Under the pieces are notes generated by a model, which did no database searches, was not told the origin of the DNA, and worked only from the letters and a program-made list of their open reading frames with translations. Positions 8,623 to 41,613 of a stretch of DNA of 64,000 bases are shown one piece after another. Source of the DNA: Bacteroidales bacterium (GTDB taxonomy: Bacteria > Bacteroidota > Bacteroidia > Bacteroidales > VadinHA17); NCBI GenBank assembly GCA_025454795.1, contig JALONT010000004.1, positions 1 through 64,000 of the forward strand. The letters run 5' to 3'. Position numbers and translations under genes: made by a program. Numbering within the stretch: position 1 is the first letter of the stretch; the number at the start of each line of letters is the position of its first letter.

Positions 8623-8868
8623 CTTTCCATCCAAAAGAGACTTTATGATCCTCAGTGCTTCCTCCCTCGTTTCACCGCAAAATTCCTCTTCGGCTTTATA
8701 ATCGGAGCAAACCTTTGGACGCAAAGAATCGCCGAAAAGAGCACACTTATAATCATCAAGCAGGTGAATACACCTCACTCCTGCCGGTTTACCGTCAGGC
8801 ATTCCCGGTATAGGTGATGATATTGAAATCGCTATGCAGCAAGCACCGCAGTCAGCCCGACATTCCAT
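8581..8868 (-). CDS. YkgJ-like cysteine-rich protein with repeat-derived tail
   Basis: A 95-residue protein of the YkgJ family of putative zinc/iron-chelating proteins; function unknown. It is rich in cysteines (3, 7, 10, 11, 33, 42, 54, 64) arranged as ECRADCGACC at the start, then VRCIHL, YKCALFG and RPKVCSDY. The start is MECRADC at 8868; an upstream Met would translate a low-complexity tract. The last 13 residues (from Asp83, DCFVVPINRDSSQ) and the stop codon are exactly the REP-like element at 8580-8622, so the native C-terminus was probably replaced. A TACTTTTG promoter element lies 30 nt upstream. Confidence 0.8.
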   Translation of the reverse strand: MECRADCGACCIAISISSPIPGMPDGKPAGVRCIHLLDDYKCALFGDSLRPKVCSDYKAEEEFCGETREEALRIIKSLLDGKDCFVVPINRDSSQ

Positions 8869-8871
8869 TGT

Positions 8872-8906
8872 AAAAGATAAAAGATAAAAGATAAAAGACA
8901 AAAGTA
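8872..8906. repeat. Short heptamer array AAAAGAY in the ykgJ-like leader
   Basis: Five in-phase 7-mers: AAAAGAT three times, AAAAGAC, AAAAGTA. They lie directly upstream of the minus-strand YkgJ-like gene and form its leader and promoter. This is the second of three distinct period-7 tracts in the window. Confidence 0.75.
8899..8906 (-). promoter_or_regulatory. -7 promoter element of the YkgJ-like gene
   Basis: The minus strand reads TACTTTTG, matching TAnnTTTG, 30 nt before the start codon at 8868. It is built from the junction of two heptamer units of the adjacent array. No -33 TTTG is evident. Confidence 0.5.
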
Positions 8907-8938
8907 AAAAATAAATGTATATGTAAATATGGTACTTC

Positions 8939-9253
8939 TTTGATCTTTGGTCTTTGATCTTTGGTCTTTGATCTTTGGTCTTTGGTCTTTGGTCTTTGAT
9001 CTTTGGTCTTTGATCTTTGGTCTTTGATCTTTGATCTTTGGTCTTTGGTCTTTGGTCTTTGGTCTTTGATCTTTGGTCTTTGGTCTTTGATCTTTGGTCT
9101 TTGGTCTTTGATCTTTGGTCTTTGATCTTTGGTCTTTGATCTTTGGTCTTTGGTCTTTGGTCTTTGGTCTTTGGTCTTTGATCTTTGGTCTTTGGTCTTT
9201 GGTCTTTGGTCTTTGGTCTTTGGTCTTTGATCTTTGGCCTTTGGTCTTTGGTC
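8939..9253. repeat. Heptanucleotide satellite, 45 copies of TTTGRTC
   Basis: Exactly 315 bp made of 45 in-phase 7-mers. All are TTTGGTC or TTTGATC, apart from one TTTGGCC near the right end. There is no indel. The gap 8869-9323 between the YkgJ-like gene and trmD therefore holds two heptamer arrays and two promoters but no gene. All minus-strand frames across it are open only because the unit contains no stop. The TTTGATC units followed by T create many GATC sites. Confidence 0.97.
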
Positions 9254-30393: not shown

Positions 30394-31071
30394 TTATGCA
30401 ATATTTGAAACATCTGAGTCGGAAGACCGAAGTCCGAAGACCGGAGCAAGATCTGCATCTTTTAACTTCCGACTCCCGGCTTCCAGCTTCTGTCCTGTTA
30501 ATTTACAATATATCTGATGACATACCCATGCATCAGTTGCAGCATACAACAGCTGAGCTTCAGTCAGTTCTTCAGCTTCCCAGTCAGTAACCTGCTGACG
30601 CTTTGATATCCTGAATCCCAGTACAATAGCAGTAAGTTTCTTAAGCCCTGAACTCACTATTCCAAAATCCTTAACAAAAGGTTGAAGGTCAATGAATCCT
30701 GCAGGGTCAAATTTCCTCACCTTTTTCATGAAGCATATATCGTCATGTACTGCCACCCCTGCCTTTATCACATCCGGATCCGCAAGCAAATCAGCAAGTC
30801 CCTGTGGTATCCCTGTCTTATTTATCCGGAACAGACAGGCCAGGTTACTGCTTGCCAGCTGAATCAGTGAGACTTTATTTTTATGCCCTTTTCTGAACGA
30901 GGGTTTTGTCTCAGTATCGAAACCAAGCACCTTTTCATTTAAAAGACGTGGCAGGACTTTTTTAAAAGTTGTCAGATCATCAATTACAACTATTTCTCCT
31001 TTAAACCAGGATAATTCATAATTTTTAATCTCATCAACCGAAATATTTTCCTGATATCTGTTATTCGTCAT
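30394..31071 (-). CDS. DEDDy-type 3'-5' exonuclease
   Basis: A 225-residue RNase D-like exonuclease domain protein. The DEDDy residues are visible: GFDTET (Asp52, Glu54), an Asp in VAVHDDI, and YAATDAW for the tyrosine and last aspartate. It probably trims RNA or DNA 3' ends in the cytoplasm; the substrate is unknown. The start MTNNRYQ at 31071 overlaps the DUF5063 stop by 11 nt; longer starts would run deep into that gene. The last 30 or so residues, after CKLTGQKLE, are encoded by inverted heptamer repeats (30420-30492) and look like a recent, non-conserved tail. Confidence 0.88.
   Translation of the reverse strand: MTNNRYQENISVDEIKNYELSWFKGEIVVIDDLTTFKKVLPRLLNEKVLGFDTETKPSFRKGHKNKVSLIQLASSNLACLFRINKTGIPQGLADLLADPDVIKAGVAVHDDICFMKKVRKFDPAGFIDLQPFVKDFGIVSSGLKKLTAIVLGFRISKRQQVTDWEAEELTEAQLLYAATDAWVCHQIYCKLTGQKLEAGSRKLKDADLAPVFGLRSSDSDVSNIA
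30420..30492. repeat. Inverted heptamer arrays inside the exonuclease 3' end
   Basis: Four 7-mers at 30420-30447 (CGGAAGA, CCGAAGT, CCGAAGA, CCGGAGC) face four inverted ones at 30465-30492 (ACTTCCG, ACTCCCG, GCTTCCA, GCTTCTG). They share the unit CxGAAGy and could pair into a hairpin with a 17-nt loop. This is the third, unrelated period-7 tract in the window, and the only one inside a reading frame. Confidence 0.7.
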
Positions 31072-31684
31072 CCCCTCTGAATTCCTTTTGCCTTCTGGAG
31101 ATAAACCACTCTGAAGTATCTCTTTTTTCATCATTCTCTTTATCATTAATCTCTGCCCTACATATCTCTTCACCTGAATATATGAATTTATGAATTGCAC
31201 GGAGGGAATTCACCAGCTTCTGTCCCCAGATATTCTCAAAATTCATTTTGCATTCCCATATAGCATCATTCATTACCTCCTTTGTACCAGTCTGGTATAA
31301 AAGCAGGAAATCCTTCATATCCTGGTAGATATCAGCCATATTTTCTGAAAGGCTTGAAGGAACAGCTCCTTCAGTTTCATTGAATTTTTCATCAGCCAGT
31401 TCAAGGAAATCATCTGCAGTGCCAAAGGTGTGCCTGAAAGAATCATGTATCCTGAACCAGTCTGCCTCAGTTATAAACTTTTCATTCCCATCTTCAAAAA
31501 CCGGTTCAAGTGCCGGAAGAAGGGAGGCTTTTAGATATAAAAACGGAAGAATCCGCTGCAATATTTTCAGCATCTCATCTCCTTTCAGTTCTGAGGAATG
31601 TTCAGAATATTTGCAGAATTCGTTGGCAGCGGCCACAAATTCAACGACAGTCCTTCCATAGACCGGATCTGAATTTTTATCCAT
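31061..31684 (-). CDS. DUF5063 family protein
   Basis: A 207-residue soluble, helical, acidic protein of unknown function. Sequence features include VVEFVAAANEFCKYSEHS near the N-terminus, a LYLKASLLP segment and LYQTGTKEVMNDAIWECKMNFENIWGQK near residue 145 (split). No catalytic motif or membrane segment is seen. It heads the DUF5063-exonuclease-RlmI-Tex-DUF190 unit and overlaps the exonuclease gene. This adjacency recurs in Bacteroidetes and suggests a part in RNA processing, which is inference. Confidence 0.85.
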   Translation of the reverse strand: MDKNSDPVYGRTVVEFVAAANEFCKYSEHSSELKGDEMLKILQRILPFLYLKASLLPALEPVFEDGNEKFITEADWFRIHDSFRHTFGTADDFLELADEKFNETEGAVPSSLSENMADIYQDMKDFLLLYQTGTKEVMNDAIWECKMNFENIWGQKLVNSLRAIHKFIYSGEEICRAEINDKENDEKRDTSEWFISRRQKEFRGDDE

Positions 31685-31704
31685 TTGCTTATATCAAATT
31701 TCAG

Positions 31705-31733
31705 CAAAATTAGACATTTTTTATTGTGAACAA
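31705..31733 (-). promoter_or_regulatory. Promoter of the DUF5063-tex unit
   Basis: The minus strand has TTG, 18 nt, then TAATTTTG (-7 at 31705-31712). This is a near-ideal Bacteroidetes promoter, with the start codon 20 nt further at 31684. The rest of the 269-nt divergent gap to 31953 shows no gene; it contains an AT-rich tract and TTAGCGTTAACG near 31829, which may be an operator half-site for the sulfatase genes. Confidence 0.6.
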
Positions 31734-31953
31734 CAATTGAAAATCCTTTAGTATACTGATAGATTCCTCACGTCGCCCGGAATTACAGGAACTTATGATC
31801 TCTTAAAGAAGAAAAGAGTGAATGTTAGCGTTAACGGAATTTATTTCTTAACACTGATAAAAACTTTAAACCTGCGAATAAAAGAAATTGAAGTACAATT
31901 TTTATAATTTAGCATCTGCCAGCAAAGAATATTAATAGATAACTCATATTATT

Positions 31954-33552
31954 ATGAATGATTTCACATCCAAAACACTTATTTACAGTGGTTTATCAGC
32001 ACTTTTTTGTACAGGAGTCAGTGTACCGCTTCATGGACAAAATCGTGTTAAATCAATTCCTGATCAGAAGTCGCGTCCTAATATTGTCTATATAATGAGC
32101 GACGACCATGCATACCAGGCAATCAGTGCTTATGGCGGCCCGCTGAAAGATCTTGCCCCGACCCCAAATATAGACAGGATAGCTGCTAACGGAGTACGGT
32201 TTGACCGTTGCCTTGTAACAAACTCTATTTCAGGACCATGCCGGGCTGTAATATTGACCGGTAAATACAGCCACCTCAATGGTTTTACAAGAAATGATGG
32301 TCAGCTCCCATTTGATGGCTCACAGCAAACTTTTCCAAAACTCCTGCAAGCTGCAGGTTATAATACGGCAATGATTGGTAAATGGCATCTGGGATCAGAT
32401 CCTACAGGATTTGACTACTGGGATATATTACCAGGGCAGGGTAGTTACTACAATCCTGATTTTTTAAATAAAGATGGAAAATACACCATACAGGGCTATG
32501 TGACAGAAATAATTACAGAAAAGAGTCTGGATTGGCTTAAGGAGGCAAAGGAGACCGGAAAACCATTCATGCTTATGATGCATCATAAAGCTCCTCATCG
32601 TGAATGGCAGCCAGGGCCAGGTGAATTAACACTGTATAAAGATATTACATTCCCGGAACCTTTAACCTTGTTTGATGACTATGCGAACAGAGGAACAGCA
32701 GAGAAGACCCAGGATATGACCATTGCAAAAACCATGCTGATTGAGGAGGATAATAAAATGTTTAAGGACAGGTCAAGAATGAAGATTACAGGACTTGACC
32801 GGATGGATCCGGAACAAATGAAAGCATGGAATAATGTTTATGATCCGATTATCAGGCGTTTCTATGAAGCAGGCTTAACGGGTGATGACCTTGTCCGATT
32901 TAAGTACCAGCGCTATATGCAGGATTACCTTGCATGTATTGCAGCAGTTGATAAAAGTGTTGGAGAGGTGCTTGACTTTCTCAGGGCTAACGGTCTCGAT
33001 AAAAATACAATAGTTATTTATGCCTCCGACCAGGGATTTTACCTTGGTGAACATGGATGGTTTGACAAACGATTTATGTTTGAACAATCCTACCGCACCC
33101 CGCTTCTTATAGAATGGCCTGGTATAACCAAACCAGGAAGTGTTAATAAAGATATGGTTTCAAACCTTGATCTGGCAGAGACATTCCTTGATATGGCGGG
33201 AGTGAAAATCCCTGCTGATATGCAGGGAAGTAGCATGGTTCCTGTCCTTAAGGGGAAAACACCATCCAACTGGAGGAAAGAACACTATTATCATTATTAT
33301 GAATTACCCGGGCCCCATAAAGTTAAACGTCATTATGGAATAAGTACAGAAAGGTATAAACTCATTCATTACTATAATGATATTGACGAATGGGAACTTT
33401 ATGATATTGAAGCCGATCCTCAGGAGTTAAAAAATGTGTATGATGATCCGGCTTATAAAAAGGTGAAGGCAAGGTTACATAAAGACCTTGATCTGCTTCG
33501 GAAAAAATATAAGGATGAACCCGGATTGGCAGAGACATTCCCGACGCAATAA
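31954..33552 (+). CDS. Secreted sulfatase (N-acetylglucosamine-6-sulfatase-like)
   Basis: A 532-residue type I sulfatase that should remove sulfate esters from a glycan in the periplasm. A signal peptide occupies residues 1-29. The metal site begins with [11 protein letters not shown]. The formylglycine motif SGPCR (in [14 protein letters not shown]) carries serine, so maturation would need an anaerobic radical-SAM sulfatase-maturing enzyme, not seen in this window. GKWHLG and [16 protein letters not shown] supply further active-site residues. It resembles the S1 subfamily containing glucosamine-6-sulfatases; substrate not certain. Start of a plus-strand cluster, 57 nt ahead of a second sulfatase. 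It is intact. Confidence 0.88.
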
Positions 33553-33609
33553 TAGCCCGGGAAAACCATGATCGGGTAAGTAAAATTTAGAAATTAATAA
33601 CCATACATA

Positions 33610-35070
33610 ATGAAAAATTCCTTTCTGAATAGTTTAATACTACCATTAGCTTTTTCGGTTACTGCCAGTGCAACTAATGCACAGTCAAAGAGAATGAATA
33701 TCCTCTTTATCGCTGTTGATGATATGAATAATGACCTGGGTTGTTATGGTCATCCAATAGTTAAATCTCCAAATATAGACCGCCTGGCATCGAAAGGTAT
33801 TGCATTTGCAAACTCTTATTGCCAGTTCCCGCTTAGCAATCCCAGCCGAAGCTCCATTTTAACCGGGATGCGTCCGGATGAAACCCGTGTTTTTAATCTG
33901 CAATATCATTTCAGACAGGATCTGCCTGATGTGGTAACTCTTCCTCAAATGTTTATTAATAATGGTTACTTTGTTGCCCGTGTTGGTAAGATGTACCATT
34001 ATGGAAATCCAGGTGATATTGGCAATAATGGATTGGACGACAAGGTATCCTGGATGGAACGCATCAATCCGTCAGGTCTTGATAAGACTTCCCTTGAACT
34101 TGATATTATAAATTATACACCTCAAAGAGGATTGGGATCAGCAATGGCATATCTCTCCGACAGCAAGGGAAAAGATGTTGAACATACAGACGGGAAAGTT
34201 GCCACTGAAACAATTAAGCTTTTGGAGAAGCATAAGAATGAACCGTTTTTTATTGCTGCAGGTTTTTATAAACCTCACACTCCATGGATAACTCCAGGAA
34301 AGTATTTCGACATGTATAATCCCGAAAAAATAAGTCTTCCCGGAATATCAGCAGAAACTCCGGATGATTACCCTGAGCCGGCATTAGCCTCAACTAAGCC
34401 ATGGCCTTATTTTGGTATTACAACCAGTCAGGCAATGGAATGTAAACTGGCTTATTATGCTGCAATCTCATTCGTGGATGCCCAAATAGGAAAGTTGCTG
34501 GATGCTCTTGATTCATTAGGTTTAAGTGACAATACCATCGTTGTTTTCTGGAGCGATCATGGATACCATCTTGGCGAACATGGATTATGGTTCAAACAGA
34601 GTTGTTTTGAAGAGTCAGCTAAAAGTCCTTTAATCATTTCAGTTCCGGGATCTAAATCAGCCGGAAAGATATGTCATCGGACAGTTGAGTTGATCGACAT
34701 TTATCCAACGCTTGCCGAACTTACAGGATTGACACCTCCCGGAAATATTCAAGGTTATAGTTTATATCCTCTTCTGAAAAATCCTGAAGCAGCATGGAAG
34801 CATCCGGCCTTTACCCAGGTTCAGAGAGGAGAAACGCCAGGGCATAGTGTCCGTACAGAATTATGGAGATATACCGAATGGGGATACGGAAAGATGGGGG
34901 AAGAATTATATAATGAAAAAAACGACCCTCAGGAATTAAATAATCTTGCGGATAATCCAAAATATAAGGATGTAAAAAACAAAATGAAAACTTTGCTTCA
35001 TAAATATCATCTAAAACCTGTTAATGGTGGTAATGCAGTTGCTGATACAAGAGAAAAATACAGCAACTAG
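33610..35070 (+). CDS. Secreted sulfatase (iduronate-2-sulfatase-like)
   Basis: A 486-residue type I sulfatase. The signal peptide ends near TNAQ (residue 25). ILFIAVDDMNNDLGCYG supplies metal ligands, and the serine-type formylglycine motif SNPSR is in PLSNPSRSSILTG. The later WSDHGYHLGEHGLWFK segment is typical. The overall pattern (AVDDMNNDLG, GFYKPHTPW) resembles iduronate-2-sulfatases, but that name also covers many algal-polysaccharide sulfatases. It is co-oriented with and close to the first sulfatase and shows no disruption. Confidence 0.87.
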   Translation: MKNSFLNSLILPLAFSVTASATNAQSKRMNILFIAVDDMNNDLGCYGHPIVKSPNIDRLASKGIAFANSYCQFPLSNPSRSSILTGMRPDETRVFNLQYHFRQDLPDVVTLPQMFINNGYFVARVGKMYHYGNPGDIGNNGLDDKVSWMERINPSGLDKTSLELDIINYTPQRGLGSAMAYLSDSKGKDVEHTDGKVATETIKLLEKHKNEPFFIAAGFYKPHTPWITPGKYFDMYNPEKISLPGISAETPDDYPEPALASTKPWPYFGITTSQAMECKLAYYAAISFVDAQIGKLLDALDSLGLSDNTIVVFWSDHGYHLGEHGLWFKQSCFEESAKSPLIISVPGSKSAGKICHRTVELIDIYPTLAELTGLTPPGNIQGYSLYPLLKNPEAAWKHPAFTQVQRGETPGHSVRTELWRYTEWGYGKMGEELYNEKNDPQELNNLADNPKYKDVKNKMKTLLHKYHLKPVNGGNAVADTREKYSN

Positions 35071-35134
35071 AAAAACCAGTATGCCTGCCCCCTACTATTT
35101 CATACATATTGAATTAAAGAATAAATAAAATATT

Positions 35135-36679
35135 ATGAATTGCAATAAATCAAAACTCAACTTCTCTTTCCTGTAGAAACTGAAGGAAGTGATCCTTTTA
35201 GCTAAGTTATTTATTTTAATTCCTATATCCATGACTACTGTTTCGGCACAAATTTCAAGAGATGAGGTTCCCATGATCGGGGCTGAATTATTTATTGAAC
35301 CCGGACAGACACCTGATGAGATGAATACCTGGTTTCAAAGAATGAAAGAAGGCGGAATGACAATAACACGGATCCGCATGTTTGAAACTTATATGCATAA
35401 GCCAGATGGAACATGGGATTTTAGCTTATTTGATCAGGCTTTTATGGTTGCTGAAAAATTCAATATTAAAGTATATGCTAATTTATTCCCGGCTACTTCT
35501 TTTTCTGATCTTGGCGGATTCAAGTTTCCCAGGGATGAGGAACATCTAACATCTATCTCTGAATATATTAAAAATCTGGTTCCTCATTTTAAGGAATTTA
35601 GCTCGTTATACGGTTGGGTCCCGATTAATGAGCCGGGAATTGACGGTATCCCGGAAGGGATATTTACGCAAAACAAATTTAAAGAATGGAGGGACAATCA
35701 GCCGGCCAATGTTTATAATAGCAAAGGTTTTGAACATTTCAATTTTGAGGATGACCGTTTTCTCCTGGATTATAATACCTGGTTTTTAAAATGGCTGATC
35801 GATGAAATCCGTAAGTATGATCAGAAAAGTCCGATACATGTGAACACCCATGCCATTTTTAATAATATAACCGTTTATGATTTTCCCGAATGGAGCAAAT
35901 TTCTGACCAGTCTTGGAGGATCGGCACATGCAAGCTGGCATTTTGGCTATTTTAAACGGAATCAATATGGTGCTGCAATGTCAGCAAACGGTGAAATTAT
36001 CCGTTCCGGTGCCGGGAAAATTCCATGGCTGATGACGGAACTGCAGGGAGGTAACAATACTTACAGCGGGGGAAACCCTATGTGTCCAACAAAAGAGGAA
36101 ATCAGTCAATGGTTATGGACCATTATCGGAACTGAAAGTAAAGGTGCAATTTTTTGGTGCCTGAATCCCAAGTCATCAGGTATTGAGGCAGGTGAATGGG
36201 CATTGCTGAATTTCCAGAATGAGCCCTCTGACAGGATGGAAGCTGTCTCAAAAGTTACAGAGATCGTTAATAAAAATACTTCCTTGTTTGCCAAAGCCAG
36301 GATTCCCGGATCAGGCATAAGCGTACTGTATTCCAGGGAAGCGCTCTGGGTTGAAAAGAAATTACAAACAGGTAGTAACGGCCCTTATGAAGGCCGTAAT
36401 GCAGGTGGCGTTATGAAATCGGCTCTGTCATATTTTGAAGCACTTGGTGAAATGGGGATTCAATCTGATTTGAAAGAATTCAGCGAATATGATTTTTCAA
36501 AAAGTGATTTTACCGGAGCTTCAATTATTCTGGCTCACCAGATAGCAATTCACTCCCGATACTGGCAAAATCTTTATGGTTTTGTAGACAAAGGAGGAAA
36601 ACTGATTGTTGACGAACTTACCTCCTATTTTGATGAAAATGCTTTATGTGTTATTAAATGGAAATCTGAATATGAGTAA
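35135..36679 (+). pseudogene. GH42-like glycoside hydrolase, nonsense-interrupted and truncated
   Basis: The natural start is ATG 35135, but codon 14 is TAG (35174-35176), before the signal peptide. The frame then continues without a break (KLKEVILLAKLF... TVSAQ). The body is a clan GH-A beta-galactosidase-like enzyme, with MIGAELFIEPGQTP, the acid/base in PINEPG and the probable nucleophile in MTELQGG. A trimerisation-type domain begins about residue 365. The frame stops at 36679 after VDELTSYFDENA, at only about 500 residues against 700 or more for the family. A displaced frame at 36640-36710 may be the original C-terminus. A GTG at 35189 could still allow translation of a truncated form, but loss of function is likely. 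Confidence 0.75.
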
Positions 36680-36793
36680 CCCTGAATTCGAACCGCTCCT
36701 GTATAAATGACTGTAAAATAAGCTAAAAATACTTAACTCAACAATATTATGTTGGTAATACTTTTTTCTGATGGGGAGACAGATTGTACCTGC

Positions 36794-36823
36794 TTGATAA
36801 TGTAATTTAGAATACTATTTTTG
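36794..36823 (+). promoter_or_regulatory. Consensus promoter ahead of the ROK/SIS genes
   Basis: TTG (36794-36796), 19 nt, then TATTTTTG (36816-36823) is an ideal match to the Bacteroidetes -33/-7 arrangement. It lies 119 nt before the ROK remnant's ATG. The 262-nt gap 36680-36941 holds this promoter and AT-rich sequence but no gene. Confidence 0.55.
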
Positions 36824-36941
36824 CTTATCGGATTTTGAAAAATTTTTCACAAGTACTTCTGTTTAGAATAAGACTAATAAACTATATAAAAAATTTAAAA
36901 ATCCTGTTTTTGGATTTTAAGAGTTTAATCGAATTAAAAGA

Positions 36942-37016
36942 ATGTATTACCTGGGTATTGAAATCGGCGGGACAAAATTTCAGGCTTTAGTTGGCGATCC
37001 CAATGCAAGCTTTTAA
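36942..37016 (+). pseudogene. ROK-family sugar kinase, N-terminal remnant
   Basis: Only 24 codons remain: MYYLGIEIGGTKFQALVGD and a short unrelated tail, then TAA. The first 17 residues are a textbook ROK-kinase phosphate-binding loop (IEIGGTKFQ). The remaining 280 or so residues of the kinase are missing, so an internal deletion has fused its start to the leader of the SIS-domain gene, which begins 34 nt later. ROK kinases often pair with sugar-phosphate isomerases, so the two were probably neighbours in one pathway. Confidence 0.8.
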
Positions 37017-37050
37017 TAATAAATTATTTAAAGATAAAATCTCTATTGTT

Positions 37051-37620
37051 ATGGAAAAATGGATGAAAAATTATGTTGAAATCCTGAACCAGAATTTAAA
37101 TAAAATACCGTTTGATAAAATAAACGAAATTATAAAGATCCTGGGAAAAGCGAATAAAGAAAAAAGACAAATATTTGTTTTCGGAAATGGAGGCAGCGCG
37201 TCAACATCCTCTCATTTCATTACTGATCTTGGAAAGAGTGCTTCAGATAAACTTCCTGATCGTTTTCGCTGTATTTCGTTGAATGATAATACAGCCTGGA
37301 TTACTGCTATCGGGAACGACTACTCATTTGAAGATATTTTTTTATTTCAGCTGAAAAACTATGCGCAACCAGGGGATGTGGTAATGACAATGAGTGTGAG
37401 TGGCAGTTCACCCAACCTGGTAAAAGCTTTTAAATGGGCAAAAGCAAACGGACTGGAAACGATAGCCCTTGTTGGTGGCAAAAAAGGAAAACTTGCGGGT
37501 ATTGCTGATCATGTTGTAGTGATCGATTCAGAACATTACGGAATTGTTGAAGATGCTCATATGGTTATCTCACATCTTCTCTGCTATGCATTTATAGAAC
37601 ATCCCGAAGTTATTAAATGA
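37051..37620 (+). CDS. SIS-domain sugar-phosphate isomerase, GmhA-like
   Basis: A 189-residue SIS-domain protein with a GmhA-like pattern: FVFGNGGSASTSSHF (phosphate-binding loop near residue 50), SVSGSSPNLVKAF near residue 115 and a late EDAHMVISHLLCYAF with possible metal ligands. It should isomerise or bind a phosphosugar; sedoheptulose-7-phosphate is the family's best-known substrate, but the neighbourhood suggests another sugar. The start MEKWMKN at 37051 was preferred because the longer frame reads through the ROK remnant. Its TGA overlaps the ATG of the following sulfatase pseudogene by 4 nt. It appears intact. Confidence 0.82.
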   Translation: MEKWMKNYVEILNQNLNKIPFDKINEIIKILGKANKEKRQIFVFGNGGSASTSSHFITDLGKSASDKLPDRFRCISLNDNTAWITAIGNDYSFEDIFLFQLKNYAQPGDVVMTMSVSGSSPNLVKAFKWAKANGLETIALVGGKKGKLAGIADHVVVIDSEHYGIVEDAHMVISHLLCYAFIEHPEVIK

Positions 37621-38998
37621 ATCCGTATATGCCATCTATAAGTCTTTTTTCAGTAGCCGTAAGCCTGGGTCTTTTGCCCCTTATTTCATGCGCGAGGCAA
37701 CCGGACGATCAAAAACCCAATATAATCTTCATCCTTGCCGATGATTTTGGATGGGCCCAGACAGGTGTCTATGGAAGTGATTATTATCATACACCAAATA
37801 TTGACCGCCTTGCTGCAGAAGGAATGCGTTTCACCAATGCTTATGCAGCCTGTTCAGTTTCTTCACCTACCAGGGCAAGCATTATGACCGGAAAATACCC
37901 GGCACGATTACATCTGACTGATTTTATAGCAGGCAATAACAGAAACGACTATCCCCTATCCCAGCCCGACTGGTAAAAGTTTCTACGACTTGAAGAGGTT
38001 ACTCTGGCTGAAATGATCAAAGAGCAGGGTTACAAAACAGCAATATTTAGTAAATGGCATCTTAGCGTGACAAAGTTCGGACCCGAAAGTCTCCCATTTA
38101 ATCCAGACAAACAAGGCTTTGATGAACATTTCGTTATTGATAAACCAAACAGGACAACCGATCCTGAACGTGATCCGCACAGGTCAGATTCCATTGGTAA
38201 TAGGTCGGTAGAATTTCTCCGGGAAAATGCCGGAAATCCATTCTTTCTGTTCGTAAGTTTCAGCGCTATTCACAATCCGCTGATGGAAAAAGCCGGTTCA
38301 ATAGCCTCGTGGAGAAAGGTCTCCGGAAGTGATGAACCGGAGAATAATCCTGTAATTGCTGCAATGCTGTCGAGAATGGACAGGAATATAGGCAAAATAA
38401 TGGATGCTGTTGCCGGGTTAATCTGGGAAAGAATACAATAATTATCTTTTTCTCGGATAATGGAGGACTGGGAAGTGATGCAAAACAGACACCCCTGCGT
38501 AAAGGGAAAGGCTGGCTTTATGAAGGAGGTATACGTGTGCCTCTGATTATAAGATGGCCGGGAGTTGTTAAAGAAGGTTCGGTAAGTTCAGAGATTGTAT
38601 CCTCTATCGATTTTATGCCCACCTTTTGTGATTTATTAAATGTGGATAAAATACCCGATGTTGACGGAATAAGTTTACTGTCTCATCTTAAAACCAGAGT
38701 TCCTTTGCCGGAAAGAAATCTTTTCTGGCATTATCCACACTACCATAATGGACCTCCCTGCGGCGCTGTCAGAAGTGGCAGATGGAAACTTATCGAATGG
38801 TATGAAAATAGTCTTCTTGAGACAGGAAAGCCGGCATTCGAGTTATATGACTTGGAAAATGATATCAGCGAATCTGTTAGCCTGGCAGATAGTTTGAAAA
38901 CTTTAACCATGAAGTTGGCGGGTGATTTGCAAAGGTGGAGGGAAGCTGTATATGCACAAATGCCTGTTCCGAATGCAAAATATTTTGAAAAAGAATGA
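37617..38998 (+). pseudogene. Third sulfatase, broken by a stop codon and a frameshift
   Basis: Encoded as a lipoprotein (LISC, Cys25) with a sulfatase N-terminus (IIFILADDFGWAQ) and a serine-type motif SSPTR in SVSSPTRASIMTGK. An in-frame TAA at 37974-37976 interrupts it after SQPDW; the same frame resumes as KFLRLEEVTLAE. A second lesion, loss of one base near 38418-38425, shifts the frame. The +1-displaced frame continues as GKNTIIIFFSDNGGLGSDA and runs to 38998. Restoring one base and one codon recovers a family-length protein of about 460 residues. It overlaps the SIS stop codon (ATGA). Confidence 0.9.
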
Positions 38999-39113
38999 AA
39001 TTAGAAGAAGACTATATAAGAAATATGGATACGAAATCAATTCGACACATTTTGAAATTGGTTCGGCAGAGATGATAGTTAAACAGGCATTAAGAATACT
39101 TAACGATTTATAA
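38995..39113 (+). pseudogene. Unidentified gene remnant
   Basis: An ATG overlapping the sulfatase stop opens a 26-codon frame (MKLEEDYIRNMDTKS...) that ends at a TGA. Another frame across the same bases carries a protein-like C-terminus (YGYEINSTHFEIGSAEMIV, then a short helix) ending at TAA 39111-39113. Together they look like the two ends of a gene that lost its middle. I do not recognise the family. Confidence 0.45.
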
Positions 39114-39116
39114 AAT

Positions 39117-39673
39117 ATGAAACAGATCTTTTGCGGTTTAAGTAAAAATCATTCATACTTTTAAGGCCATTTCCCTATTATTAGTGGTCTCATTAATTTC
39201 TTTTAACAGGATTAATGCATAAAAGCAGAATGACCTTGATGTATTAAGGAATTACTGGCTCCATTATACTGATGCTTCTAATTCTCTGTATCACTATCTG
39301 ACAGGGGAAGCATATAAAATGCTGGAAACAAGAGCAGCAAGTGTAGGTAAACTTCAGAATATTGACGAGTGGCGGAAAAGACAGGCAGAAGTATTGATCG
39401 TTTTTATTATCCGGGTTTTGTTCAGAACCTGGTTCCGGGAGCCCTTTCAGCATACGATCTTCAGGACCTTGCAGCCACTCTGGCACCAAGGAGATTATTG
39501 CTGGTGGGCACAACAGATGGAAATGGGAAAAAACTGATCAGGAAAGCATTGATAATGATCTCGCAATAATCAAAAAAACTTATCAATCAAAAAATGCCAG
39601 CCGACAGTTAAGTATTGAATCACCGGAATCAACTGAGAGGACTTATAATCTTTTTTTGGAATGTATAAAATAA
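39117..39673 (+). pseudogene. Alpha/beta-hydrolase esterase (acetylxylan-esterase-like), decayed
   Basis: ATG 39117 opens a frame that shifts near 39160. A signal peptide (FKAISLLLVVSLISFNRINA) then meets TAA at 39220-39222. After the stop the frame continues as YWLHYTDASNSLYHYLTG and KLQNIDEWRKRQAEV, typical of the N-terminus of large Bacteroidetes carbohydrate esterases. Near 39395-39405 it jumps to C-terminal sequence in another frame (VPGALSAYDLQDLAATLAPR), and the final tail uses yet another frame to TAA 39671-39673. Several hundred central codons, including the nucleophile serine region, are missing. Confidence 0.7.
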
Positions 39674-39684
39674 GTTATCTGTCT

Positions 39685-41613
39685 TTACCTGGTAAAAAGA
39701 TCAGGTTCCTTCCACATCAGCAGGTGCTTGTCGTCCATGATTATCTTATTATGATCGAGAAGCCAGCGTAACACCTTCATACTTTTTTCCTCCGGATAAG
39801 TGATCCTGCTTATCAGTTCCTGTGCATCCAGTTTTGTTTCAGCAAGTATCTCCTTTATTTCTTCAAGAATAAGATCAAATTCATATTTGCTCAGGTCAAG
39901 TTCATTCCTTTCACGGCATACATCGCAGGAGCCGCACCGGTCTGCCTCCTCTCCGAAATAATCAAGAAGGGTAACAGATCTGCATTTGGTGTTGTAATCT
40001 GCAAAATCGATCATTTTGTTCAACCGGATGATATATTTCTCCTTCACCTGGAGATAGTTCTCCGGAGATATCTTCAGAGCTTTTCTTTCGAGCCTCTCTT
40101 CGGTAAATATTACCAGAGCAGTTTTTTTACCCGGGATAAACTTTATTATATTTAGTGTTGAAAGTTTCACAAGGAACCTGTAAATGACATCCCTGGTCAG
40201 TGCTGATTTTTTTGCAAGTGTCTCTTCGTTTATTGCCACAAACTCTGAGAACATTCCCGAATAGGATCTCAGGAGAAGTTTTATGAATCCGTCAAAAGAT
40301 TCGTTGGCAACCTGGAATTTGTAAAGATCATCGCGTCCTACAATAAAATGCACCCTCGACGGATTGTTTATCTCTTCAGTGAATTCAATGTATCCTTCCC
40401 TTTGAAGAAATACAAGGCTGTTGTACGTTTCAATTACAGGAAGACGATATTTTGAAACAAAACCCTGCATGCTGAAATCAAATACACTATCTTTTCCTGC
40501 CCCCTGTGGCACCTGGAGAAAATTGCAGAGAGCCTCATATATGTCCTTGATTTTCTCAACAGGAGGAAATCTGCGTTTTATCGATTCTTCCATCCTGCTC
40601 TTATCGGAAGTCGAATAGAGAAGAACAGCATATGCCGGTTTACCATCGCGCCCGGCTCTCCCGCTCTCCTGGAAGTATTCTTCGATGGAGTCCGGCATTT
40701 CCCAGTGGATCACGAACCTGACTTCTGCTTTATCAATACCCATTCCGAATGCATTTGTCGCAACTATCACACGTGTCTCACCTGTAGTCCAGGATGTCTG
40801 CTTCTTATCCCGGAGTTCAGATGGAAGTCCTGCATGGTAAAAATCGGCACTGATACCATTTGCAACAAGAAGCTCTGCAATCTCTTTGCACCTTTTTCTG
40901 CTGCGGACATAAACTATTCCGCTGCCGTTAACCTTATGAAGGGTTTTAAGAAGATACGTGCCCTTATCCTCTGCACTTCTAACGAGGTATGAGATATTTT
41001 TACGCTCAAAGCTTGTCCGCAGAACATTTTTTTCCCTGAATCCCAGGTTTTTCATTATATCATCAATCACAACCGGGATTGCAGACGCAGTAAGCGCAAG
41101 GAAAGGGACCTTTTCTGATATCAACCCGCGTATCGATGAAATTTTCAGGTATGATGGTCTGAAATCATAACCCCACTGTGAAATGCAATGCGCTTCATCA
41201 ACTGCCACAAGGTTAAGGTTAAGACGCGGAAGCCTGGTCTGGAATATCCTGGTTGCAATCCTTTCGGGAGATATGTACAGGAATTTATAGTTGCCGTAAA
41301 TTGAATTTTCCAGAGCAATATCAATCTCTTCTGCCGACATGCCGGAATGTACTGCCAGAGATTTAATTTCCAGGCTGTTAAGACGATTTACCTGGTCCTT
41401 CATCAGTGCAATAAGTGGAGTTATTACAAGACATATTCCCTCTTTCGCAAGTGCCGGCACCTGGAATGTAATTGATTTGCCACCACCTGTTGGCATAAGT
41501 CCAAGCGTATCCTTTCCTTCTGCAATGGATCTTATGATTTCTTCCTGCAGAGGTTTGAAGGATGTATATCCCCAGTATTTTGTCAGGACCTGCCTGTAGG
41601 GTTCAATATTCAT
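39685..41613 (-). CDS. recQ: ATP-dependent DNA helicase RecQ
   Basis: A 642-residue 3'-5' superfamily 2 helicase for recombination and replication repair. Walker A is MPTGGGKS (residues about 40-47), with VDEAHCISQWGYDFRP (DEAH), LTASA and the motif VI region QESGRAGRDG. A zinc-binding domain has CRSVTLLDYFG, CGSCDVC. A winged-helix region follows. No HRDC domain is evident; the protein ends after a short helical tail, as in the shorter RecQ forms. Its 3' end lies 12 nt from the esterase pseudogene. Confidence 0.94.
   Translation of the reverse strand: MNIEPYRQVLTKYWGYTSFKPLQEEIIRSIAEGKDTLGLMPTGGGKSITFQVPALAKEGICLVITPLIALMKDQVNRLNSLEIKSLAVHSGMSAEEIDIALENSIYGNYKFLYISPERIATRIFQTRLPRLNLNLVAVDEAHCISQWGYDFRPSYLKISSIRGLISEKVPFLALTASAIPVVIDDIMKNLGFREKNVLRTSFERKNISYLVRSAEDKGTYLLKTLHKVNGSGIVYVRSRKRCKEIAELLVANGISADFYHAGLPSELRDKKQTSWTTGETRVIVATNAFGMGIDKAEVRFVIHWEMPDSIEEYFQESGRAGRDGKPAYAVLLYSTSDKSRMEESIKRRFPPVEKIKDIYEALCNFLQVPQGAGKDSVFDFSMQGFVSKYRLPVIETYNSLVFLQREGYIEFTEEINNPSRVHFIVGRDDLYKFQVANESFDGFIKLLLRSYSGMFSEFVAINEETLAKKSALTRDVIYRFLVKLSTLNIIKFIPGKKTALVIFTEERLERKALKISPENYLQVKEKYIIRLNKMIDFADYNTKCRSVTLLDYFGEEADRCGSCDVCRERNELDLSKYEFDLILEEIKEILAETKLDAQELISRITYPEEKSMKVLRWLLDHNKIIMDDKHLLMWKEPDLFTR

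Follow-up and report, generated by a model that had tools for sequence, protein, structure and literature searches.

A sulfated-glycan gene island, probably in decay, at a variable DUF5063-recQ junction of a Bacteroidales genome

Between a DUF5063 gene and recQ of the draft, metagenome-type Bacteroidales assembly G000 (3,294,153 bases, 86 contigs, 99.11% complete) we found an island of genes that is probably a sulfated-glycan catabolic cargo at a variable junction, in the course of being lost gene by gene; we put the probability of this reading at around 0.75. It is carried by the gene families, the lesions within them, a junction that is nearly empty in the two closest relatives examined and further glycan genes that are broken elsewhere in the genome. 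Processes of this kind, in which variable glycan genes disappear, are already known, and the island would provide a clear snapshot of a glycan-foraging set being lost, with a near-empty junction in a sister genome for comparison. The stages of decay differ from gene to gene: the kinase and the esterase-like gene are nearly gone, the glycosidase is truncated and appears to be drifting, one sulfatase is disrupted yet has stayed close to its paralog, and two sulfatases and an isomerase are untouched.

Layout of the island

The window, i.e. the whole stretch of 64 kb that was analyzed, is part of contig C23 of this genome. On re-reading, its ORFs, reading frames and coordinates matched the earlier map. 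The DUF5063 gene and recQ are separated by 8000 nt, and the genes in between are all located on the + strand, both flanking genes on the - strand:

31061-31684, - strand: DUF5063 gene, flanking the variable junction on the left (PF16702, 141.6 bits)
31685-31953, no strand: non-coding stretch at the island's left border, without matches above chance level in the rest of the genome
31954-33552, + strand: S1, intact sulfatase (family match, solved relatives, conserved positions)
33610-35070, + strand: S2, intact sulfatase (family match, solved relatives, conserved positions)
35174-36679, + strand: GH164-type glycosidase, truncated (leader TAG at 35174-35176, frame from the GTG at 35189, C-terminal part gone)
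36942-37016, + strand: ROK kinase stub of 24 codons (36942-37013) followed by TAA, the remainder of the gene being absent
37051-37620, + strand: SIS isomerase, GmhA-like, intact (189 aa)
37617-38998, + strand: S3, broken sulfatase (TAA at 37974-37976, frame change around 38417-38420)
38996-39113, + strand: putative frame without a relative in the searches, not confirmed as a gene
39115-39670, + strand: esterase-like remnant, pieces in several frames (weak profile and structure matches)
39685-41613, - strand: recQ, right flank of the junction, whose orthologs adjoin DUF5063 in relatives

Outside the island the gaps between listed ORFs measure at most 340 nt, versus 686 nt in the esterase region, and eight of the ten ORFs that were checked there with Pfam belong to sensible families, the other two being overlapping frames over a tandem repeat. 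A tandem repeat at around 8640-9240 shows KDQRPKT-like frames on the - strand, directly before a short cysteine-rich frame, and the Pfam matches there look spurious. Of the repeat and IS families that were listed (20 of 31 direct and 25 of 27 inverted), none was conspicuous in joining the two edges of the island. The 254-nt left edge recovered three matches from its own genome besides itself, all at E 0.06, and the stretch 36640-37000 recovered matches at E <=0.01 in 8 of 60 genomes including its own, the others all being shorter than 60 nt (best E 5.3e-4). In codon usage, the four island genes with open frames deviate more from the window mean (distances of 0.238-0.378) than most of the 19 other window genes do (0.167-0.255), which is a weak sign because these same 19 genes set the mean and the SIS gene is short.

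Gene families, lesions and constraint

Among proteins of solved structure, S1 is most similar to 9s03 (a putative sulfatase), 5g2v (an N-acetylglucosamine-6-sulfatase) and 7p24 (a mucin-desulfating sulfatase), S2 to an arylsulfatase (6hhm) and iduronate-2-sulfatases, and the last piece of S3 to a kappa-carrageenan sulfatase, S1_16. The S/C-x-P-x-R motif of maturase-dependent sulfatases (S1 family) was found by eye, in its Ser-type, in S1, S2 and the first piece of S3. Given that the genome has one match above cut-off to the maturase model TIGR03942, on contig C62, S1 and S2 could be activated. In searches throughout the order, in which only a few candidates per genome were scored, matches to S1 (E <=1e-120) were obtained in 80 of 393 genomes including its own, the best (74% identity) in the same-genus genome G029, where it sits in a different sulfatase cluster; matches to S2 (E <=1e-80) were obtained in 26 of the 393, the best at 42%. 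The TAA and the frameshift reported for S3 in an earlier note on this DNA were both recovered by alignment to an intact paralog of 465 aa on contig C59 of the same genome, to which S3 is 72% and 74% identical on the two sides of the lesions. The redundancy provided by this paralog speaks for the reading as decay.

The glycosidase had been taken for a GH42-like enzyme with an early TAG and a truncation. The family assignment has to be replaced: the protein matches one solved sequence, that of the GH164 enzyme Bs164, at 571 bits over residues 20-486, whereas the GH42 profile (PF02449) reached 38.3 bits and covered only profile positions 193-374 of 376. Bs164 is a beta-mannosidase of Bacteroides salyersiae and the founding member of GH164, built of a barrel, a trimerisation and a beta-sandwich domain, with Glu-160 and Glu-297 as acid/base and nucleophile (PMC7105311). 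Both catalytic glutamates are kept; in the alignment to Bs164 they correspond to residues 148 and 284 of the frame that starts at 35189. The truncation, on the other hand, is evident. The frame 35189-36679 encodes 496 aa, whereas seven whole-frame relatives have 647-697 aa and the chain of Bs164 has 674 residues, and the alignment stops at chain residue 489 of 674, so that around 180 C-terminal residues are lost and the window copy lacks the full set of three domains, as a truncated, pseudogene-like gene. The TAG at 35174-35176 is real, yet ambiguous; it may be harmless, because the GTG downstream of it opens a frame that retains a signal-peptide-like start (by eye). The homologous stretch of genome G071 also contains stops, but these are confined to its residues 2 and 4 and do not lie beyond the likely start.

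Matches to GH164 were found in 10 of 98 genomes including its own. Besides G000, they were strong over most of the length in G071, G034 and G008, the latter two of the same genus as G000. Nine GH164 loci were taken from the named collection, among them L032, which equals the contig of G071 in length and is probably the same record. Just upstream of the GH164 gene there is a GH130 gene in L034 and a GH2 gene in L030, neighbors that are consistent with beta-mannosides. No matches of ortholog strength to S1, S2, S3 or SIS were present at the GH164 loci L028-L041, some of which span only 3.5 to 12 kb; the contig of G071 (L032, L039, L040) carries distant sulfatases.

The reduction of the ROK kinase to 24 codons was borne out, as 22 of these match residues 5-26, the start, of a 307-aa ROK kinase in genome G236 (68% identity over 22 residues). 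The gene for that kinase adjoins the best relative of the SIS isomerase (55% identity; SIS matches occur in 258 of the 393 genomes of the order), with a sodium:solute symporter also beside it. Its closest solved relatives are glucokinases and N-acetylmannosamine kinases, with an ATP-glucomannokinase far lower in the ranking, and these similarities do not favor mannose as the substrate. The SIS protein has Asp and Glu at two aligned positions that we take to be the metal ligands of GmhA; 19 of 29 aligned relatives have Glu and Gln there, and the other 10, including that of G236, have Asp and Glu. Since several of these 10 adjoin heptose-kinase-like and nucleotidyltransferase-like genes (by eye), a heptose-type substrate would be as open as mannose.

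Toward recQ the picture becomes less distinct. The pieces described as a broken esterase are present at around 39115-39670, and their identity as an esterase is weakly indicated, by PF12715 (Abhydrolase_7) at E 0.0024, under the family cut-off, and, at E 0.18, by the solved structure 3g8y, which is an esterase-like protein associated with SusD/RagB. A match of the first piece to a spectrin model was judged to be due to chance. The frame 38996-39113, which had been counted as another broken gene, could not be confirmed as a gene, having no useful match in the searches made with it.

Constraint was expressed as the number of departures at positions that are identical in all other sequences of a set (S1, 12 others, three of the 15 loci offered having been lost to a duplicate/coverage filter; S2, 11 of 11; GH164, 11 of 11; SIS, 29 of 29). 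S1 departs at 1 of 163 conserved positions (other sequences 0-5), S2 at 1 of 45 (1-4) and SIS at 0 of 18 (0-1). For GH164 there are 10 departures in 135, including two that lie beyond the end of the homology, versus 0-5 in eight relatives and 7, 11 and 21 in three more distant ones. On basis of these counts, S1, S2 and SIS, described earlier as intact and indeed fully open, seem to be under constraint or to have been released only lately, and GH164 seems to be drifting, moderately and not beyond its most distant relatives.

The open genes might also be read as a trimmed working set, in which S1 and S2 desulfate glycans processed through other loci, SIS works with a different kinase and the loss was confined to useless parts. 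The conserved positions kept in all three, together with the maturase encoded in the genome, fit such a set, but a recently released gene would look identical, and the SIS gene is without its kinase neighbor. A simulation of the lesions, in which the original gene lengths and the lesion numbers are estimates, left all of S1, S2 and SIS clean by chance with a frequency of 0.030 (7 lesions) or 0.018 (8 lesions); for any gene set with as many codons the values were 0.25 and 0.15, and thus, with the selection of the genes taken into account, the simulation does not show that the intact ones escaped lesions more often than by chance. We consider the trimmed set a serious candidate that falls somewhat short of even odds.

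The preferred reading, decay of a sulfated-glycan cluster that is still partial, is supported by the disabling lesions in neighboring genes for which intact relatives exist elsewhere (GH164, ROK and S3). Recoding, or another genetic code, was considered unlikely because missing parts and frame changes accompany the stops. The proposal that the loss was recent suits S3, with two lesions and 72-74% identity to its paralog, but suits less well the ROK and esterase-like genes, which are nearly gone, and the GH164 gene, which departs more often from conserved positions. No literature titles on a decayed sulfatase cluster were found.

The junction in relatives and glycan genes elsewhere in the genome

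A comparison with the orthologous locus had been suggested as a check, and it showed that the two nearest relatives examined, G053 and G001, carry no island at this junction. Orthologs of DUF5063 were found in 56 of 62 genomes of the genus, and 20 stretches were fetched, with both flanks visible in 11; in the other nine recQ lay outside the stretch or a contig end was reached. In the 11 two-flank stretches DUF5063 and recQ are spaced by 36, 153 and 283 nt in three cases and by 1.5 to 11.4 kb in eight, the shortest spacings being those of G053 (36 nt) and G001 (153 nt), versus 8000 nt in G000. None of the 20 stretches contained a match of at least 50 bits to S1, S2, S3, GH164 or SIS. Congeners differ in their cargo: G013 has a SusD gene, G025 (recQ not in view) has an FAD-linked oxidase with iron-sulfur domains, others have cargo of further kinds, and frames with a start resembling that of the G025 oxidase were seen by eye at several other junctions. 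The junction thus appears to be a small insertion hotspot or an unstable site, ranging from empty to 11.4 kb across the species of the genus.

A tree of four flank proteins (21 genomes, recQ being present for 12 of them) placed G053 as sister to G000 with a support of 0.893, some deeper nodes being weak. Because the two nearest relatives have a near-empty junction, a gain of the island in the line of G000 is probably the simplest reading, though not a proof; it is argued by the two nearest of the fetched relatives only, and a loss in both is possible. In that case the island would be old in the genus and its decay in G000 a late stage of the same loss. The S1 relative in another sulfatase cluster of G029 and the GH164 genes of two other same-genus genomes (G008 and G034) agree with this, but in all three the relatives of island genes sit in surroundings other than the DUF5063-recQ junction, and no island gene is found at that junction in the 20 fetched stretches, for which reasons we hold an old island to be unlikely.

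Erosion of glycan genes extends beyond the island. The genome has 16 matches to the sulfatase family PF00884, two of which are the pieces of S3. A sulfatase on contig C16 is broken by an internal TGA and a later frame change, C81 carries a sulfatase end of 131 aa beside two short frames without Pfam match, and on C38 a sulfatase is truncated by the contig end. There are 13 matches to SusD (PF07980), with internal stops on C79 (6) and C80 (2). Decay is thus not confined to the island, and the view that selection was lost on one glycan pathway is too narrow, because four contigs besides C23 (C16, C81, C79 and C80) carry broken sulfatase or SusD genes. The absence of SusD and maturase genes from the neighborhood was correctly noted: there is no PF07980 or TIGR03942 match on C23, all 13 SusD matches and the maturase being on other contigs. 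Decayed sulfatase/SusD remnants of G000 lie at L044 8087-9299, L043 9920-11297, L142 5900-7500 and L143 6800-7600. In the control congeners G001, G053, G013, G011 and G101 the sulfatase matches number 8, 12, 3, 3 and 117, of which 0, 0, 0, 0 and 2 have internal stops. As partial, stop-free sulfatase matches occur in these congeners too, the erosion is not special to G000. The range within the genus is very wide, with 117 matches in G101 versus 3 to 16 in the five other genomes counted. In G000 and G029, transposase-like frames (by eye) were seen close to sulfatase/SusD genes and to the ends of contigs (L161 3828-4553, L143 8418-9395, L045 4210-5057 and L165 1952-2380), and they are possibly tied to gene loss and to breaks in the assembly.

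An origin of the stops and frame changes in errors of assembly or base calling, with the genes in fact whole, is very improbable, in spite of the draft state with 86 contigs, because the lesions are many and large: S3 combines a stop with a frame change, large parts of the GH164, ROK and esterase-like genes are absent besides the point lesions, and no comparable gap exists elsewhere in the window.

Possible pathway and comparison with known systems

If the genes of the whole island once served one pathway, S1, S2 and S3 would remove sulfates and the esterase-like product perhaps ester groups, GH164 would release beta-linked mannose, the ROK kinase would phosphorylate the released sugar and SIS would isomerise the sugar phosphate. 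The substrate and the order in which the steps were lost would have to be read in the same conditional way. In no other genome searched did this gene set occur together, and the best relatives of S1, GH164 and SIS are found in different genomes, so that a single ancestral pathway is a supposition. A more specific proposal would be that GH164, the sulfatases, ROK and a SIS isomerase with a non-canonical metal site constitute an undescribed route for a sulfated beta-mannoside, in which ROK phosphorylates mannose and SIS makes fructose-6-phosphate, the genome having kept desulfation and isomerisation and lost mannoside cleavage and the kinase; we regard this as quite doubtful. A search for literature linking ROK, the SIS domain, mannose-6-phosphate isomerase and mannokinase (three together) returned nothing.

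The island resembles the polysaccharide utilisation loci of Bacteroidota in that sulfatases, a glycosidase and an esterase-like remnant occur together, and differs from them in the absence of a SusC/SusD pair, as judged by its SusD member (PF07980) on C23. The ROK-SIS pair of G236 (L104) has the same gene order as the island, but there both genes are whole and accompanied by the symporter; within 37 kb around that pair there is no ortholog of GH164, S1, S2 or S3, only a distant sulfatase. Another likeness concerns the Bs164 locus, where an arylsulfatase-like gene adjoins the glycosidase as well (PMC7105311). Apart from a paper on mucopolysaccharidoses that is unrelated by its title, this paper was the only one in the literature searched that joins GH164 with a sulfatase. 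Unlike Bs164, the window copy is without the last ~180 residues, which include the final portion of the trimerisation part as well as the beta-sandwich domain, and it is accompanied by three sulfatases and by ROK and SIS genes. The occurrence of GH164 beside sulfatases, as at the Bs164 locus, bears on the natural substrate of the GH164 family.
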